Origin: Catellatospora methionotrophica
GTDB lineage: Bacteria; Actinomycetota; Actinomycetes; Mycobacteriales; Micromonosporaceae
Reading direction: 5' to 3'
DNA length: 64,000 nt
NCBI RefSeq assembly: GCF_011297335.1
Contig: NZ_JAAOTJ010000001.1
Coordinates: 186,001-250,000, forward strand
Below the pieces are notes generated by a model. The model worked only from the letters and a program-made list of their open reading frames with translations. It ran no database searches and had not been told where the DNA came from. The position numbers and the translations under genes were made by a program. Positions 19,798 to 25,963 of this stretch are shown in pieces (the first letter of the stretch is position 1; every line of letters begins with the position of its first letter).

Positions 19798-19890
19798 GAT
19801 CACTCAGCGTGATCTCAGATCGCGGCATCTGTGACAGTAAGTCCCATAAACCTCATACGGTGGATATGCCGGTTACATAGCATCGGCTGT
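19798..19890 (+). promoter_or_regulatory. Control region of the molybdo-reductase operon
   Basis: TAGCAT (19878-19883) lies 7 bases before ATG 19891, giving a leaderless first gene. Upstream is a perfect inverted repeat GATCAC-TCAGC-GTGATC (19798-19814), about 65-80 bp before the -10 and suited to an activator. On the minus strand within 19836-19848 is GGGACTT, which is one half of the DosR/DevR hypoxia box; the second half is degenerate, so this is a weak hint only. Confidence 0.45.
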
Positions 19891-20892
19891 ATGAGGCCCG
19901 TGCTCGTCGGCATCGTCACCGCCCTGGTGCTCAGTGCGGCGATCTTCCTCGGCAGCAGGGGCCTGCACAACTTCGACTCGGCGCTGGCCCCGTACGCCAT
20001 CGCCAGCGTGTTCCTCGCCTTCGGCATCGCCTACCGCTACACGGTGTGGATCTCCTCCCCCGGCGCGCGGCGGCTGTTCCGCAAGGGCTGGGGCGCGGCG
20101 CTGTCCTGGCAGAACCTGCGCCGCACGCCGACCGCGCTGCCCCGCATGATCGCGACCTACCTCGGCTTCCAGAAGTTCCTCGGCGCGCGCTCGCGGGCCC
20201 GCTGGGCCGCCCATCAGCTGATCTTCTGGGGCTGCCTGCTGGCCGCCGCGATCACCTTTCCGCTGACCTGGGGCTGGTTCACCTTCACGGCGAACACCGG
20301 GGCCGGGCCGCAGTACACCATGAACATCTGGGGCTTTCCGGTGGTGGGGTTCAACGCCCTGTCGGTGCTCGGCTGGCTGCTGTTCCACGGCCTCGACATC
20401 GCCGCCGTGCTGGTCATCGCGGGTGCCACGTACTTCCTGATCCGGCGCATGCGCGACCGGGAGGCGAGCACCGGCCAGCGTTTCGGCTACGACCTGGTGC
20501 CGCTGCTCGCGCTGATCATCATCTCGGTGACCGGGCTGCTGCTGACGTTCTCCAGCGTCGCGCTGCACGGCGGCGGCTACGAGTTCCTGGCCGTGCTGCA
20601 CATGGCCGCCGTGGTGCTCACGCTGCTGTACCTGCCGTTCGGCAAGTTCTTCCACATCGCCCAGCGCCCCGCGGCGGTCGGCATGCAGCTGTTCAAGTAC
20701 ACCGAGCACGGGGAGATCCGGCGCTGCCGCAACTGCGGCGAGCCCATCGACACCACGGCGTACGTCGACAACCTGCGGGCCACCATGCGCGACCTGAAGC
20801 TGGACTTCGACGCCATGGCCGAGGTCTGCCCGCGATGCAAGCGGCTGCGGCGCGGCCAGGCCTACCGCACCACCGTGAAGCCGGGGTTCTGA
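19891..20892 (+). CDS. NarI/HdrE-like membrane cytochrome b subunit with C-terminal CxxC pairs
   Basis: 333 residues. Six or so membrane helices: about 4-22, 32-50, 103-122 (AAHQLIFWGCLLAAAITF), 151-176 (LSVLGWLLFHGLDIAAVLVI), 196-216 and 224-246 (FLAVLHMAAVVLTLLYLPFG). His residues in helices (WAAHQ, LLFHGLD, AVLHMAA, KFFHIAQRP) are arranged as di-heme b ligands of the NarI/HdrE/DsrM quinol oxidases. The soluble C-terminus carries CRNCGEP and CPRCKRL, two CxxC pairs that could bind zinc or an iron centre, which NarI lacks. Inferred role: menaquinol oxidation and electron delivery to the next subunits. First gene of a six-gene operon with 1- to 4-base junctions. Confidence 0.8.
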   Translation: MRPVLVGIVTALVLSAAIFLGSRGLHNFDSALAPYAIASVFLAFGIAYRYTVWISSPGARRLFRKGWGAALSWQNLRRTPTALPRMIATYLGFQKFLGARSRARWAAHQLIFWGCLLAAAITFPLTWGWFTFTANTGAGPQYTMNIWGFPVVGFNALSVLGWLLFHGLDIAAVLVIAGATYFLIRRMRDREASTGQRFGYDLVPLLALIIISVTGLLLTFSSVALHGGGYEFLAVLHMAAVVLTLLYLPFGKFFHIAQRPAAVGMQLFKYTEHGEIRRCRNCGEPIDTTAYVDNLRATMRDLKLDFDAMAEVCPRCKRLRRGQAYRTTVKPGF

Positions 20893-20893
20893 C

Positions 20894-23179
20894 ATGACCA
20901 TCCCCCTCGACCCGAACATCACCCCGCCGGGCACCGGCCGGTTCCGCGACGCGGGCGGGCTGCCGGCCGACCGCTGGCGGGCCATCCGGGGCGAGGAGAC
21001 GCTGGTCGCCACGCACTGCTGCTTCTGCGGCGTGCAGTGCGGCATGTACCTGCGCGTGCACGACGGCAAGGTGTTCGGTGTCGAGCCGCGCGACCACGAC
21101 ATCAACCGGATGCGGCTGTGCCCGAAGGGCCTGAACGCGTACCAGCAGGTCAACCACCCGGACCGGCTGACCGCGCCGCTGTATCGCCAGAGCCGCGCCG
21201 ACGACCTGCGCCCGGTCTCCTGGGAGCAGGCCCTGGACACCACCGCCGAGCACATCCAGCGCATCCAGGCCGAGTACGGCCGGGACGCGTTCGGGATGCT
21301 GGGCGGGGCGAGCCTGTTCACCGAGAAGACGTACCTGGTGGGCAAGTTCGCGCGGGTGGCGCTGCGGACCCGACACGTGGACTACAACGGGCGGCTGTGC
21401 ATGGTCAGCGCGGCCGGGGCCAACAAGCTGTCGTTCGGCATCGACCGGGCCGCGAACCCGTTCGCGGACTGCCTGCTCAGCGACTGCCTGCTGATCGCCG
21501 GGTCCAACGTCGGCGAGTGCTTCCCGGTGATGACCCAGTACCTGTGGGGCGCGCGCGACCGGGGCGCGAAGCTGATCGTGATCGACCCGCGCGAGACGAG
21601 CATCGCCCGCACCGCCGACATCCACGTCGCGCTGCGGCCGGGCACCGACGCCGCGTTCTTCAACGCGGTGCTGCACGTGGTGATCACAGAAGGCCTGACG
21701 GACGAGGCGTTCATCGCCGAGCACACGACCGGCTGGGACGAGGTCCGGACGGCGGCCGCCGAGTGCCCGCCGGAGCGCGCCGCCGAGATCTGCTGCATCC
21801 CGGTCGAGCAGGTCACGCAGGTGGCGCGGATGTTCGCGACGGCCGGCAAGGCGATGGCCTGGCACGCGCGCGGCATCGAGCACCACACCCAGGGTGTCGA
21901 GAACTGCCTCACTGTGATCAACCTGTGCGTGGCCACCGGCAACCTCGGCAAGCCCGGCGCGGGGTACGGCACCATCACCGGGCAGGGCAACGGGCAGGGC
22001 GGGCGCGAGCACGGCCAGAAGTCGGACATGCTGCCCGGCGGTCGCAACATCAGCGACCCCGTGCACCGCATGCAGGTCGCCGACATCTGGGGCATCGACG
22101 TCGAGGACCTGCCGCAGGCGGGCACCTCGATGATGGAGATGGTGCACCAGATGCGCCGCGGCGAGATCCGCGGCCTGTTCGGCATGTGCAACAACCCGTT
22201 CGTGTCGCTGCCGAACTACACCGTGGTCAAGGAGGGCTACGACGCCCTGGAGTTCCACGCCCAATGCGACTTCTTCCTGTCCGAGACCGCCGCCAACGCG
22301 CACCTGGTGCTGCCGGTGACCAGCTGGGCCGAGGACGACGGGGTGATGGCCAACGCCGAGGCGCGCGTGGTGCGCCACCGCAAGGCCCAGGAGCCGCTGC
22401 CGGGCGTACGCACCGACACGTGGGTGCTGTGCGAGCTGGCCCGGCGACTGGGCGCCGGGGACAAGTTCGCGTTCGCGGACTCCGAGCAGGTGTTCGAGGA
22501 GCTGCGGATCGCCTCGCGAGGCACGGTCAACGACTACTACGGCATCACGTACGCCCGGCTCGACGAGACCGGCGGCATCGCGTGGCCGTGCCCGACGCTG
22601 GACCATCCGGGCACGCCGCGGCTGTTCGAGGGCGGGAAGACGTACCACGCCGACGGCAGGGTGCACCTGCAGGCGGTGCGCTGGCATCCGCCCGCCGACC
22701 CGTACGACGACACGTACCCGATGACGCTGACCACGGGCCGGACGGTGGCGCACTTCCTGTCGGGCAATCAGACGCGGCGGCTCGGCGGGCTGGTCGAGCA
22801 GACGCCCCGGCCGTGGGTGGAGGTGCACCCGTCGCACGGGTTCGCCAACGGCGACGCGGTCACCGTGGTCACCCGGCGCGGCGCGGCGACGTTCCCGGCG
22901 CTGGTCACCGAGGCGATCCGGCCCGACACGGTGTTCGTGCCGTACCACTGGCCGTATCCGGTGGCCGCCAACGAGCTGACCATCGACGCCCTCGACCCGC
23001 GCTCGAAGATCCCCGAGTACAAGGTGTGCGCCTGCCGGATCGAGCCGGCCGACGCGGTCACGGCGGTGCCCGCGCCGCCGATGCCGCCGGGGCGCGAACC
23101 GTACGCCGACACCCAGCGCTCGCGCGGCGAACCGCTGCCACCCACCTCGTCGCAGGGAAGGGGCACGTCAGAGCCATGA
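20894..23179 (+). CDS. Molybdopterin oxidoreductase, NarB/NasA-like catalytic subunit (putative nitrate reductase)
   Basis: 761 residues. The [4Fe-4S] motif HCCFCGVQCGM (CxxCxxxC) with the fourth ligand in RLCPKGLNAY begins the bis-MGD oxidoreductase fold. NGRLCMVSAAG places a Cys at the Mo ligand position, as in NarB/NasA and Nap (GKLCMSSA). The middle has GNLGKPGAGYGTITGQGNGQGGREHGQK, and the C-terminal molydopterin-binding domain has TLTTGRTVAHFLSGNQTRR. There is no Tat signal, so it is cytoplasmic. Nitrate is inferred from the NarB-like active site and the co-encoded NarK-type transporter; formate or another oxyanion is not excluded. ATG 20894 starts one base after the previous stop; its stop overlaps the next gene as ATGA. 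Confidence 0.85.
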   Translation: MTIPLDPNITPPGTGRFRDAGGLPADRWRAIRGEETLVATHCCFCGVQCGMYLRVHDGKVFGVEPRDHDINRMRLCPKGLNAYQQVNHPDRLTAPLYRQSRADDLRPVSWEQALDTTAEHIQRIQAEYGRDAFGMLGGASLFTEKTYLVGKFARVALRTRHVDYNGRLCMVSAAGANKLSFGIDRAANPFADCLLSDCLLIAGSNVGECFPVMTQYLWGARDRGAKLIVIDPRETSIARTADIHVALRPGTDAAFFNAVLHVVITEGLTDEAFIAEHTTGWDEVRTAAAECPPERAAEICCIPVEQVTQVARMFATAGKAMAWHARGIEHHTQGVENCLTVINLCVATGNLGKPGAGYGTITGQGNGQGGREHGQKSDMLPGGRNISDPVHRMQVADIWGIDVEDLPQAGTSMMEMVHQMRRGEIRGLFGMCNNPFVSLPNYTVVKEGYDALEFHAQCDFFLSETAANAHLVLPVTSWAEDDGVMANAEARVVRHRKAQEPLPGVRTDTWVLCELARRLGAGDKFAFADSEQVFEELRIASRGTVNDYYGITYARLDETGGIAWPCPTLDHPGTPRLFEGGKTYHADGRVHLQAVRWHPPADPYDDTYPMTLTTGRTVAHFLSGNQTRRLGGLVEQTPRPWVEVHPSHGFANGDAVTVVTRRGAATFPALVTEAIRPDTVFVPYHWPYPVAANELTIDALDPRSKIPEYKVCACRIEPADAVTAVPAPPMPPGREPYADTQRSRGEPLPPTSSQGRGTSEP

Positions 23180-23829
23180 TGGGACGCACCATCGTGATCG
23201 ACCCGGGCCGCTGTATCGGCTGCCAGGCCTGCGTGTCGGCGTGCCGGGAGTGCGACTCGCACCGCGGCAAGTCGATGATCCACCTGGACTATCTGGACCA
23301 GGGCGCCAGCGTCGCGTCCAGCCCGACGGTGTGCATGCACTGCGAGGACCCGGTCGCGCCGTGCGCGCAGGTGTGCCCGGCCGAGGCCATCCTGGTCACC
23401 CCGGACGGGGTCGTGCACGACGCGGACAAGAGCCGCTGCATCGGCTGCGGCAACTGCGTCAGCGCCTGCCCGATGGGCGTACCGAAGATCGACCTGGAGG
23501 CGAAGCTCCAGTTCAAGTGCAACCTGTGCTACGACCGCACGTCGTACGGCCTGGCCCCGATGTGCGCGACCGTCTGCCCGACCGGGTCGATCTTCTACGG
23601 CACCCTCGAAGAGCTGCGCACCGAGCGGCCCGGCGTGGAGGTGGCCAGCACGTTCGACTTCGACGGGTCGATCATCTCGACGGGCGTGGCGATGGTGGTG
23701 CCCCGGGGACGCCCCGTGGACGAGCCGCTGCCCGGCGGGGCCGGGGAGCACGCCCGCGTCACGGGCAGCCCGCAACCGGCCGGGCACCTGGAGCCGTCCG
23801 CGGACAACGTGCTGGGGGACCCGCTGTGA
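23176..23829 (+). CDS. Four-cluster ferredoxin-type electron-transfer subunit (NarH/DmsB-like)
   Basis: 217 residues with sixteen Cys in four groups: CIGCQACVSACREC, CMHCEDPVAPCAQVCP, CIGCGNCVSACP and CNLCYDRTSYGLAPMCATVCP. This is the DmsB/NrfC/HybA/NarH layout, with all four centres predicted as [4Fe-4S]; unlike NarH no position shows the Trp substitution that makes a [3Fe-4S] centre. The C-terminal ~50 residues are Pro/Gly-rich and have no known domain. It should wire the cytochrome b and/or Rieske protein to the molybdenum subunit. ATG 23176 overlaps the preceding stop by four bases. Confidence 0.92.
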   Translation: MMGRTIVIDPGRCIGCQACVSACRECDSHRGKSMIHLDYLDQGASVASSPTVCMHCEDPVAPCAQVCPAEAILVTPDGVVHDADKSRCIGCGNCVSACPMGVPKIDLEAKLQFKCNLCYDRTSYGLAPMCATVCPTGSIFYGTLEELRTERPGVEVASTFDFDGSIISTGVAMVVPRGRPVDEPLPGGAGEHARVTGSPQPAGHLEPSADNVLGDPL

Positions 23830-24413
23830 GCGCCGAGCCGCGCAGCAGGGAGCGGGAGGCGGGCACCGGACACCTCGACGGGCCGCACGGGCACACCGAA
23901 CAGGAGGTCGCGGCGCTGCGGGAGCGCATCGCAGCGGACTCGCTGACCAGCCGCCGGGACTACCTGCGCCTGGCCGTGACGATGTCCGGCGGCCTGGCGG
24001 CGGGCGGTGTCGCGGTCGCGGCGGGCATCTTCCACCGGCACGGCGAGGGGGCCGCGCCGCCGAAGCTGGTCGCCGAGCAGCTGCCGCCCGGCCAGTCGGT
24101 GGCGTTCACCTACCCCGGCGAGGAGGACCGGGCCGTGGCGCTGCGGATGGCCGACGGGACGCTGGTCGCGTACTCCTCGATCTGCACGCATCTGGCCTGC
24201 GGGGTGCTGTGGCGGGCCGACCGGGGCGAGCAGGGCGAGCTGTACTGCCCGTGCCACGAGGGCGTGTTCGACCCGCGTTCGGGCGCGGTGACGGCGGGGC
24301 CGCCGCCCCGGCCGCTGCCGCGGGTGCTGTTGGAGGAGCGCGACGGCGGCATCTGGGCGGTGGGCACGCTGCAATCCGGTGAGCAGCTACCCGGCCGACC
24401 GCGCGATCGCTGA
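23826..24413 (+). CDS. Tat-exported, membrane-anchored Rieske [2Fe-2S] protein
   Basis: 195 residues. A long hydrophilic N-terminus leads to a twin-arginine signal-anchor, SRRDYLRLAVTMSGG then AAGGVAVAAGIF (about 42-68). The Rieske domain follows: CTHLAC and CPCHEGVFD provide the two Cys and two His ligands. In the first box the usual small residue after His-Leu is Ala, not Gly, and CPCHEG replaces CPCHGS, which may lower the potential compared with bc1-type Rieske proteins. It faces outside the membrane while the catalytic subunit lacks export, so it may sit on the quinol-oxidation side. GTGA overlap with the ferredoxin gene. Confidence 0.92.
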   Translation: MSAEPRSREREAGTGHLDGPHGHTEQEVAALRERIAADSLTSRRDYLRLAVTMSGGLAAGGVAVAAGIFHRHGEGAAPPKLVAEQLPPGQSVAFTYPGEEDRAVALRMADGTLVAYSSICTHLACGVLWRADRGEQGELYCPCHEGVFDPRSGAVTAGPPPRPLPRVLLEERDGGIWAVGTLQSGEQLPGRPRDR

Positions 24414-24434
24414 CGTACACCGTGAGGAGCAGGC

Positions 24435-24737
24435 ATGACGCAGGCGCGATACCCCGAGATCAAACCCACCAGCGGGTACGGTGACCCGCGCATCCGCAGC
24501 ACCGGACCTGGACCGGGCGCGGGCGGCGAGACGGACCCGGAACGGTCCTCGATGCTGTCCGGGCGGCTGGCGCTGGTGCTGTCCATCCTGGTCGGCCAGC
24601 TCTGGGCGATCGGCGTCGGCCTGAACGCGTGGATGCAGGGCCAGACCAGGACCGCCTGGTGGGCGGCGGCGTTCGGGGTGGCCTCGTTCGGCGTCGCGCT
24701 GTGGGCGTGGCGGCTCGGCGAACGGCACGACCGGTGA
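24435..24737 (+). CDS. Small two-helix membrane protein of the reductase operon
   Basis: 100 residues. The first 40 are hydrophilic with YPEIKPTSGYGDPRI; two hydrophobic helices follow (about 42-65, LSGRLALVLSILVGQLWAIG, and 74-92, AWWAAAFGVASFGVALWAW). I know no named family. The position between the Rieske gene and the transporter (22 bases after one, 4-base GTGA overlap with the other) suggests an accessory or anchor subunit of the complex. AGGAG about 6 bases before ATG 24435 supports the start. Confidence 0.82.
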   Translation: MTQARYPEIKPTSGYGDPRIRSTGPGPGAGGETDPERSSMLSGRLALVLSILVGQLWAIGVGLNAWMQGQTRTAWWAAAFGVASFGVALWAWRLGERHDR

Positions 24738-25963
24738 GCGCCCCGGCCGTCGCCGTGCGGGTGCCGCGCGGGGCGTACACCAACCTGATCCTCGCCGCGC
24801 TGGGCTTCCTGCTCACCGCATGGGCGTGGGGCCTGATCAGTCCCCTCTCGGCGTACTACAAGTCTCACCTCGGGCTGTCCTCGGTGCAGCAGTCGGTCCT
24901 GGTCGCGGTGCCGGTGCTGGTCGGCTCGCTGGGCCGGATCCCGGTCGGCGCGCTGACCGACGTGCTAGGCGCGCGCAGGATGCTGCCCGCGATCGCGTTC
25001 CTGACCATCGTCCCGGTGCTGCTGCTGACCGTGGCCCGGGACTCGTACCCGGCGATGCTGGTCGTCGGCTTCCTGCTGGGCATCGGCGGCACCCCGTTCG
25101 CGGCGGCGATCCCGCACGGCAACGGCTGGTTCCCGCCGACCAAGCGCGGCATGGCGCTGGGCGTCATCGGCATGGGCATGGGCGGCACCGCGATCGCCGC
25201 GCTGCTGACCAAGCCGATGCGGGAGATCGGCCCGAACGCGCAGTTCTACCTGTGCGCGGCGGTGCTGGCGGTGTACGGCGTCGTCGCCTGGCTGGTGCTG
25301 CGCGACCCGCCGGGGCGCACGGTGCCCGCCGAACCGTTCTCGCGCCGTTTCACCGACGCCGCCCGCCAGCCGATGACCTGGCCGCTGTCGGGCCTGTACG
25401 CGGTCACCTTCGGCGGTTACGTGTCGTTCGCCGTCTACCTGGTCACCTACCTGCAGAGCCAGTACGGCCTGGAGCAGGGCGACGCCTCGCTCAAAGCGGC
25501 CGGGTTCACCCTCGTCGCGGTGCTGTTCCGTCCGCCGGGAGGCTGGCTGTCCGACCGGGTGGGGGCGGCGAAGGTGCTGTCGGTGTGCCTGGCGGTGCTG
25601 GCCGTGATGGCGGCCTGGCAGGCGTTCGCGCCGCCGCTGTACCCGTGGGCGACGTTCACCTTCCTGGTGATGGCGGCCATGCTCGGTGCGGGCGCGGGCG
25701 CGGTGTTCTCGCTGCTGGCGCAGGTGATGCCCGGCCCGAAGGTGGGCGCGGTGACGGGCATCGTCGGCGCGGTCGGCGGGCTCGGCGGATTCGTTCCGCC
25801 CCTGGTCATGGGCGCGGTGTACGGGGCCACCGGCTCGTACACCATCGGCCTGCTGCTGCTGGCACTCGTCGCGCTGGGCGCGCTGGCCTATACCTGGTCC
25901 CAGCGCAACCGGCGACCGGCCGTGGACGCCTCCCCCGCTCCACCGCTGCCTAAAACGCGATAA
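24734..25963 (+). CDS. narK: NarK/NNP-type MFS nitrate/nitrite transporter
   Basis: 409 residues, twelve predicted helices. The signature region GFLLGIGGTPFAAAIPHGNGWFPPTKRGMALGVIGMGMGGTAIAAL has the Gly-rich helix 4-5 arrangement of the nitrate/nitrite porter family, written here in parts: GIGGTPFAAAIPHGNGWFPP and KRGMALGVIGMGMGGT. The MFS loop GALTDVLGARRM (helix 2-3) is present, and the second Gly-rich motif is GAGAGAVFSLLAQVMP with KVGAVTGIVGAVGGLGG. The closest functional label is NarK-type import or nitrate/nitrite exchange, fitting a cytoplasmic nitrate-reducing site. GTG 24734 overlaps the preceding stop (GTGA). Last gene of the operon. Confidence 0.85.
   Translation: MSAPAVAVRVPRGAYTNLILAALGFLLTAWAWGLISPLSAYYKSHLGLSSVQQSVLVAVPVLVGSLGRIPVGALTDVLGARRMLPAIAFLTIVPVLLLTVARDSYPAMLVVGFLLGIGGTPFAAAIPHGNGWFPPTKRGMALGVIGMGMGGTAIAALLTKPMREIGPNAQFYLCAAVLAVYGVVAWLVLRDPPGRTVPAEPFSRRFTDAARQPMTWPLSGLYAVTFGGYVSFAVYLVTYLQSQYGLEQGDASLKAAGFTLVAVLFRPPGGWLSDRVGAAKVLSVCLAVLAVMAAWQAFAPPLYPWATFTFLVMAAMLGAGAGAVFSLLAQVMPGPKVGAVTGIVGAVGGLGGFVPPLVMGAVYGATGSYTIGLLLLALVALGALAYTWSQRNRRPAVDASPAPPLPKTR

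Follow-up and report, generated by a model that had tools for sequence, protein, structure and literature searches.

The usual classification of nitrate reductases recognizes three types, Nar, Nap and Nas, the last of them soluble and assimilatory. Where, then, does an operon belong that encodes a Nas-type catalytic subunit next to a membrane cytochrome and a Rieske protein? Six genes of this kind occupy positions 19,891 to 25,963 of a 64,000-nucleotide stretch (the window) of the 8.39 Mb genome of the actinobacterium Catellatospora methionotrophica. The operon is real and conserved, and the gene set, present in soil actinobacteria and in Deinococcus, seems to join a Nas-type reductase to a membrane respiration module with a Rieske protein. 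We favor, with a probability of roughly 60%, the reading that it encodes a membrane-bound quinol:nitrate oxidoreductase, a NasC-lineage counterpart of Nar in which the Rieske protein would act as an outer-side relay. Genomes are labeled G (G000 being that of the window) and loci L. The genes, with Mo-bisMGD standing for the molybdenum bis(molybdopterin guanine dinucleotide) cofactor, are:

19891..20892, + strand: cytochrome b membrane subunit, NarI/QmoC superfamily, with 6 predicted transmembrane helices and a C-terminal CxxC...CPxC domain
20894..23179, + strand: catalytic Mo-bisMGD subunit, NasC/NarB type, 761 residues, no signal peptide or transmembrane segment predicted
23176..23829, + strand: electron-transfer subunit whose 16 cluster cysteines would ligate four [4Fe-4S] clusters, without transmembrane segment
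23826..24413, + strand: Rieske [2Fe-2S] protein with twin-arginine motif SRRDYL and a single transmembrane anchor
24435..24737, + strand: small membrane protein DUF6755 (PF20540), by domain match
24734..25963, + strand: NarK-family nitrate/nitrite transporter (TIGR00886), an optional companion

Re-reading of the open reading frames and domain searches recovered these genes and their domain content at the positions given in the initial annotation. The Pfam/NCBIfam searches returned Molybdopterin, Molydop_binding and Fe4S4 domains, Fer4 families, Rieske (PF00355) and DUF6755 (PF20540); the cytochrome start at 19891 is the conserved one, although the longest open reading frame would open at 19831. 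The junctions are, in order, a 1-base gap, ATGA, GTGA, a 21-base gap between the Rieske and DUF6755 genes, and GTGA, all of which had been listed before except the 21-base gap. The operon is more than a chance assembly, because gene order and cofactor ligands are kept while the flanking genes vary.

This conservation was followed in the two phyla sampled, Actinomycetota and Deinococcota. A cytochrome search of 61 genomes found the gene in 11 of 11 genomes of the genus (the window's included, one as a remnant) and in one other genus, the six-gene order being retained in 10 intact relatives. Within the fetched stretches, the downstream SCP2 and debranching enzyme genes are common only to the four nearest species and G010, the genome with the remnant, so the module is kept beyond general synteny. 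A scan of the phylum for DUF6755 matched 11 of 396 genomes (7 above the cut-off), and all ten other DUF6755 genomes have the four-gene set at the match, one copy being truncated where its contig stops; two copies are present in one of these genomes. Scanning named genomes with the cytochrome alignment gave at least 512 relatives; among the best 80 of these, 4 belong to Catellatospora and the others to Streptomyces or Kitasatospora, and 79 carry the four core genes in order, the remaining one stopping at a contig end. A deeper cytochrome profile matched 28 of 392 Actinomycetota genomes (23 full-length matches from 11 families, 5 short and weak), and 13 further loci all keep the order, one being contig-cut past the catalytic gene. 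Among 72,556 plasmid records the cytochrome matched 4, all from Deinococcus, and the three that were opened (L139-L141) contain all six genes in order.

Altogether, the order cytochrome, catalytic subunit, four-cluster protein, Rieske protein is kept in the 117 fetched loci, except 3 that are ended by contig ends; the initial annotation had proposed to look for a conserved order across actinobacterial genomes, and for four genes it exists. Irregular loci are L050, where the reading frames of the catalytic and four-cluster genes are broken, L125, where the catalytic match is short, and L103, where about 1.4 kb separates the cytochrome from the catalytic gene. Five genomes had been fetched twice; DUF6755 and NarK were counted over 110 loci, L059, L060, L061, L119, L228 and L232 having been dropped as repeats. 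Of these, 95 have a tblastn match to DUF6755 (a search that missed three Deinococcus records annotated as DUF6755) and just 15 have a NarK-like gene within 4 kb. A fixed six-gene unit is rejected on these counts, and the initially proposed six-gene complex including NarK fails with it: the core is four genes, DUF6755 is usual and NarK optional. Streptomyces griseus (L084), for instance, carries the core set together with DUF6755. The window's own NarK scores 179 bits with TIGR00886, under the cut-off of 311.7. No NarJ was found among the six genes and the two neighbors scanned, nor in the conserved gene order, in keeping with the initial observation that no NarJ/NapD-type chaperone gene is recognizable next to the operon.

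The catalytic subunit retains the N-terminal cysteines C42, C45, C49 and C76 and the active-site pair C169-M170 in 115/115 loci. Its best profile is NasC, at 763.5 bits under the NF047855 cut-off of 1100; since the canonical nas genes of the genus themselves score merely about 775 bits, this cut-off does not separate the module from Nas. The Fdh-alpha profile TIGR01591 gives 588.6 bits, also below cut-off, and NapA profiles give 238-250 bits against cut-offs of 904-931; with this score and no transmembrane or signal segment in the subunit, a periplasmic Nap identity is not supported. NarG (TIGR01580) is absent by profile from the window's genome, where the best match, 25.7 bits against a cut-off of 1084, is a fragment of the NasC-like gene itself; NirB is present. 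The 16 catalytic subunits placed in the tree form one clade (support 100/99). In a first tree of 35 rows, including FdnG, YdeP and Aio rows with the longest branches, the module (100/99) and actinobacterial Nas (100/100) meet at a joint fork supported at 88/75. A second tree of 36 rows, in which those rows were left out and Paenibacillus, Deinococcus and Mycobacterium Nas adjoining nirB were added, places the module (100/99) as sister to assimilatory Nas (99/95), the two together at 100/100; both trees were built without Bacillus subtilis NasC and cyanobacterial NarB. The Cys-Met pair is shared by the module, Nas, NasN and NapA rows, versus Cys-His or Cys-Gln in the FdhF formate dehydrogenase rows, and one Rhodococcus row annotated as nitrate reductase has Cys-Thr at this position. 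The subunit could, as the initial annotation had allowed, have clustered inside a characterized family with the same partners; it is instead sister to the sampled Nas, and the Nas rows that were checked have partners of NirB type. The initial idea that a catalytic subunit of the NarB/NasC type is combined with electron-transfer proteins of the membrane is supported, with nitrate as the likely substrate. One of the two main module clades includes the Deinococcus copies, which suggests transfer between phyla. G161 holds two copies of the module (L052 and L057), one in each main clade.

For the cytochrome, H108, H237 and H255 are kept in 116/116 loci and H166 in 114/116, and in the C-terminal quartet C279, C282 and C313 are kept in 116/116 and C316 in 115. 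The spacing of H237 and H255 is that of the NarI pair. Among 30 relatives, profiles match QmoC in 30 and TmcC in 27, all below the NCBIfam cut-offs, and NarI (PF02665) in 9, the window protein itself lying below threshold. Alignment by hhalign to three NarI proteins gave a probability of 84.9 and an E-value of 6.4e-6 and brought H237/H255 onto the histidine pair of one NarI helix; the solved-structure relatives are four Escherichia coli NarI sequences and no others (E 0.016-0.019). No Pfam or NCBIfam match to the bc-type cytochrome b family was obtained for the operon proteins or the cytochrome relatives. The cytochrome, which the initial annotation had described as part of a bc-like Rieske/cytochrome b module, is best placed in the NarI/QmoC superfamily, the bc-type reading being rejected on the profiles and the structure search. 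Hydropathy and the positive-inside pattern predict six transmembrane helices with the C-terminus inside, so that H108/H255 would lie towards the cytoplasm and H166/H237 towards the outer side. The Deinococcus plasmid records L139, L140 and L141 annotate this gene as 'MFS (major facilitator superfamily) transporter'.

The remaining core proteins are equally constant. The four-cluster protein has 15 of its 16 cysteines in 115/115 loci and C63 in 114. The Rieske protein keeps R43R44, C120, H122, C125, C141, C143 and H144 in 115/115 loci, which is the bc-type set of ligands (C120, H122, C141, H144) and disulfide pair (C125, C143), within the motif CPCHxGxFD. High-potential Rieske centers have Ser and Tyr where the module protein has Gly and Phe, and mutant work associates Gly/Phe with a lower potential. 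By hydropathy the Rieske protein has a single anchor helix and DUF6755 has one or more transmembrane segments; the catalytic and four-cluster subunits have none. A twin-arginine motif ahead of one uncleaved helix would be expected to put the Rieske domain outside.

These parts would fit a Nar-type redox loop carrying a Nas-type head. In the NarI-type cytochrome, menaquinol would be oxidized close to the b-heme on the outer side, that of H166/H237. The electrons would traverse the membrane to reach the second, inner heme at H108/H255, continue through the four [4Fe-4S] clusters and then the FS0 cluster, and arrive at the Mo-bisMGD site on the cytoplasmic side, where nitrate, imported by NarK where that is present, would be reduced to nitrite. 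With protons released outside at the quinol site and taken up inside, a redox loop of the Nar type would result. DUF6755 would be a small membrane subunit. The Rieske protein, held on the outer face by its uncleaved helix of the twin-arginine translocation (Tat) type, is predicted to exchange electrons with the cytochrome. It might connect the enzyme with the bcc/cytochrome c branch, a function proposed for NarC of Thermus, or it might take part in quinol oxidation. It has no counterpart in NarGHI, and Thermus NarC is its nearest parallel: the portion of PMC7694296 on this protein describes a diheme cytochrome c with NarI as interaction partner and a possible role in electron branching. A link between a nitrate reductase and the oxidase branch on the outer side is plausible, since Nar1 of Streptomyces coelicolor is tied to the bcc-aa3 supercomplex in the corresponding portion of PMC7931247.

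The genes around the module differ between lineages. In 4/4 Deinococcus plasmid records a GAF-BTAD protein flanks the module, by coordinates, always on one and the same side. It is a homolog of the protein at the DnrS position of a Thermus nar cluster: 17 of the 24 plasmid records that match this protein are from Thermus, and in the one Thermus record opened its gene adjoins narCGHJI and is followed by a Crp/Fnr gene, which is where dnrST lies in the nar cluster as given in part of PMC7694296. The plasmid pDrdI carries a separate nas gene with nirBD and siroheme genes away from the module, and separate nas-nirB loci also coexist with it in Catellatospora relatives. At L054 an HPP membrane gene follows DUF6755 and a NirK-like gene lies on the opposite side. 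Copper nitrite reductase profiles match at E<=1e-20 in 15/24 module genomes with none above the cut-off, and no claim of denitrification is therefore made. NarG is absent from 23/23 other module genomes, and G001 and G007 have NarG together with the module. A mutual exclusion of the two was considered (NarG in 45/392 genomes, the module in 23/392, overlap 0 versus 2.6 expected, P 0.055) and dropped, because it is not significant and because G001 and G007 carry both. In L139-L141 a hypothetical open reading frame of 65-71 residues overlaps the cytochrome start (no Pfam match for the one scanned), and an FmdE-family protein with a DksA/TraR zinc finger (L139:17643-18242) and a gene for a major facilitator superfamily protein lie near the module in three Deinococcus records.

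The most serious competitor, which we consider possible but doubtful, is the same enzyme with an assimilatory job, a quinol-fed Nas that would hand nitrite to NirA or NirBD in aerobic cells rather than respire. Several observations speak for it and thereby weigh against a respiratory role. The sister clade is assimilatory Nas; in one family NirA-like genes lie next to the module, in G161 and G310 by domain scan, and a siroheme-reductase match lies about 5 kb from it in G225; and in 4/11 genus genomes (the window's, G004, G008 and G009) nasC is reduced to a fragment and nasB was not found while an intact nirB and the module are kept, a state in which the module, intact in the window's genome and accompanied there by NarK, could possibly serve assimilation. 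The decayed nasC of the window's genome (G000:C55, L186:7136-7554) corresponds to residues 1-47 and about 500-594 of the sister gene and precedes the intact nirB. Intact nasC occurs in 7/11 genus genomes (four sequence-checked, with NirB-like nasB and nirB, three by profile only), and from the nasC and module counts each of the 11 retains the module or nasC and six retain both. On the other hand, a NasN-like protein is indicated in 11/11 genus genomes by length and profile and was domain-checked in that of the window (L021:5811-9992, a 1393-residue fusion of a Nas-type domain, flavodoxin and a CysJ-type reductase), so the module would not be needed for assimilation there. NirB is absent by profile from 18/23 other module genomes, though siroheme reductase domains (NIR_SIR, of nitrite or sulfite type) occur in 21/24, and Deinococcus combines its separate nas-nirBD with a Thermus-nar-type regulator beside the module. 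Control by GlnR was sought and is unsupported by the upstream scans: its box, defined by a strict pattern that could miss weak boxes, occurs in 0/76 upstream stretches, against 13/1520 random ones, and not at all in the window. When upstream regions of the genus are aligned, 60 bases are conserved, but solely among the five nearest species, and they contain no nameable motif. Lineages probably differ in what becomes of the nitrite, which may be assimilated, excreted or reduced further.

Other explanations fare less well. That the NasC-like active site acts on formate, chlorate or another oxyanion we consider unlikely, even though both the NasC and the TIGR01591 scores fall under their cut-offs and most Streptomyces copies have no nitrate-specific neighbor, since the invariant Cys-Met pair, the grouping with Nas and the NarK, HPP, NirK-like, NirA-like and Thermus-nar-type companions in other lineages point to nitrate. 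Quite unlikely, too, is mere co-transcription of the cytochrome, Rieske and DUF6755 genes with a soluble NasC-like and four-cluster pair fed by ferredoxin or NAD(P)H; the two subunits do lack transmembrane segments, and relatives in the Nas clade are soluble in the relevant parts of PMC7331816 and PMC10100899, but the four-gene set is strictly co-conserved across 11 families and a second phylum and includes no dedicated NAD(P)H reductase gene. It is very improbable that the enzyme runs in reverse as a nitrite oxidoreductase, in which electrons from nitrite at the cytoplasmic Mo site would leave via the NarI-type hemes, pass to the Rieske protein on the outer face and continue to cytochrome c oxidase. 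The Nitrobacter enzyme with its NarC homolog (PMC7694296, in part) has such a layout, with a high-potential partner at the outer face of a NarI-type cytochrome, and the many genomes lacking NirB would fit; yet the Gly/Phe Rieske center probably has too low a potential, the clade is one of reductases, and NarK and the Thermus-nar-type regulator suit the use of nitrate. A broader speculation, very improbable as well, is that the module represents a further, NasC-descended class of prokaryotic nitrate-transforming complex, whose diheme cytochrome of the NarI type would form a two-way branch point together with the outer Rieske protein. Quinol could then pass electrons to nitrate, or nitrite could, in aerobic cells, feed them into the Rieske/oxidase chain, which would allow the complex to work as a new type of nitrite oxidoreductase in ordinary soil actinobacteria.

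The quinol:nitrate oxidoreductase that we prefer faces further difficulties of its own. NarK is lacking near most Streptomyces copies. The kinship of the window's cytochrome with NarI is traced through weak profile matches, all under curated cut-offs, and H166 is replaced by Arg in L054 and L230, the sole exceptions among 116 loci, so that one heme ligand is not universal; the outer heme of these two lineages may be lost or ligated otherwise. G010, a sister species, has lost the operon; what remains ahead of SCP2 is some 80 codons of the cytochrome gene and 151 bases (L035:12008-12413). Nevertheless, the Cys-Met pair, the NarI kinship, the topology predicted from the positive-inside pattern and the four-gene order tilt the balance towards this enzyme, and the NarK, GAF-BTAD, HPP, NirK-like and NirA-like companions, the separate nas loci and the missing GlnR box lean the same way, as far as sequences can tell.

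The molybdenum, four-cluster and membrane-anchor subunits that define a complex iron-sulfur molybdoenzyme are all encoded together in the module. Part of this definition comes from an excerpt of PMC7331816, in which the clade of Nas, Aio, Nap and Fdh is described as never associated with four-cluster or membrane-anchor subunits; the present pairing of a Nas-type enzyme with a membrane module seems to contradict that statement. Nas is exclusively assimilatory in the portions of PMC7331816 and PMC10100899 that treat it, and narB of Mycobacterium smegmatis was found dispensable in that of PMC7816997. No description of the gene set was found in the open-licence PubMed Central full texts searched, from which the term 'DUF6755' is also absent, in agreement with the initial suspicion of an undescribed system. 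If our reading is correct, this clade would gain an energy-linked branch, represented by a widespread enzyme of the NasC lineage that has a Rieske protein besides both kinds of subunit; 'assimilatory' calls based on narB or nasC matches would be unreliable in actinobacteria and Deinococcus; and the role of a Rieske or cytochrome c subunit at the outer face of NarI-type enzymes could be studied in a new system.

Among known systems, NarGHI resembles the module in its cytoplasm-side Mo-bisMGD subunit, four-cluster subunit and, probably, NarI-superfamily diheme cytochrome b, presumably also in quinol oxidation on the outside, but the catalytic subunit of the module is of NasC type, with a Cys ligand and about 760 residues, and not NarG; its four clusters all have four Cys, it has no NarJ gene, and a Rieske protein and DUF6755 are added. 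Thermus NarCGHI, too, is a nitrate reductase built on NarI, with an additional redox subunit on the outer side; next to its operon lies a homolog of the GAF-BTAD protein that accompanies the module in Deinococcus. Its additional subunit, however, is a diheme c-type cytochrome and the catalytic subunit is NarG. The assimilatory Nas enzymes (NasC/NasA/NarB) share the Cys-Met pair and provide the sister catalytic clade (100/100 together), whereas their observed partners, NirB, NirD and NirB-like flavoproteins, are all missing from the module. NasN is, like the module, a probable nitrate reductase of the window's genome (L021); it differs as a single fused NADPH-type protein of 1393 residues on a separate tree branch, and is so called by its architecture, not by comparison with the M. 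smegmatis sequence. QmoC, TmcC, HmcE and TcuB supply the best named profiles for the module cytochrome, but the scores lie far below their cut-offs, their partners are unrelated, and the module protein adds a C-terminal four-Cys domain. With the cytochrome bc complexes, finally, the module has in common a Rieske protein with two Cys, two His, a disulfide pair and a Tat-type anchor, while its cytochrome appears to be of the NarI type and the set includes no gene for cytochrome c1 or a bc-type cytochrome.

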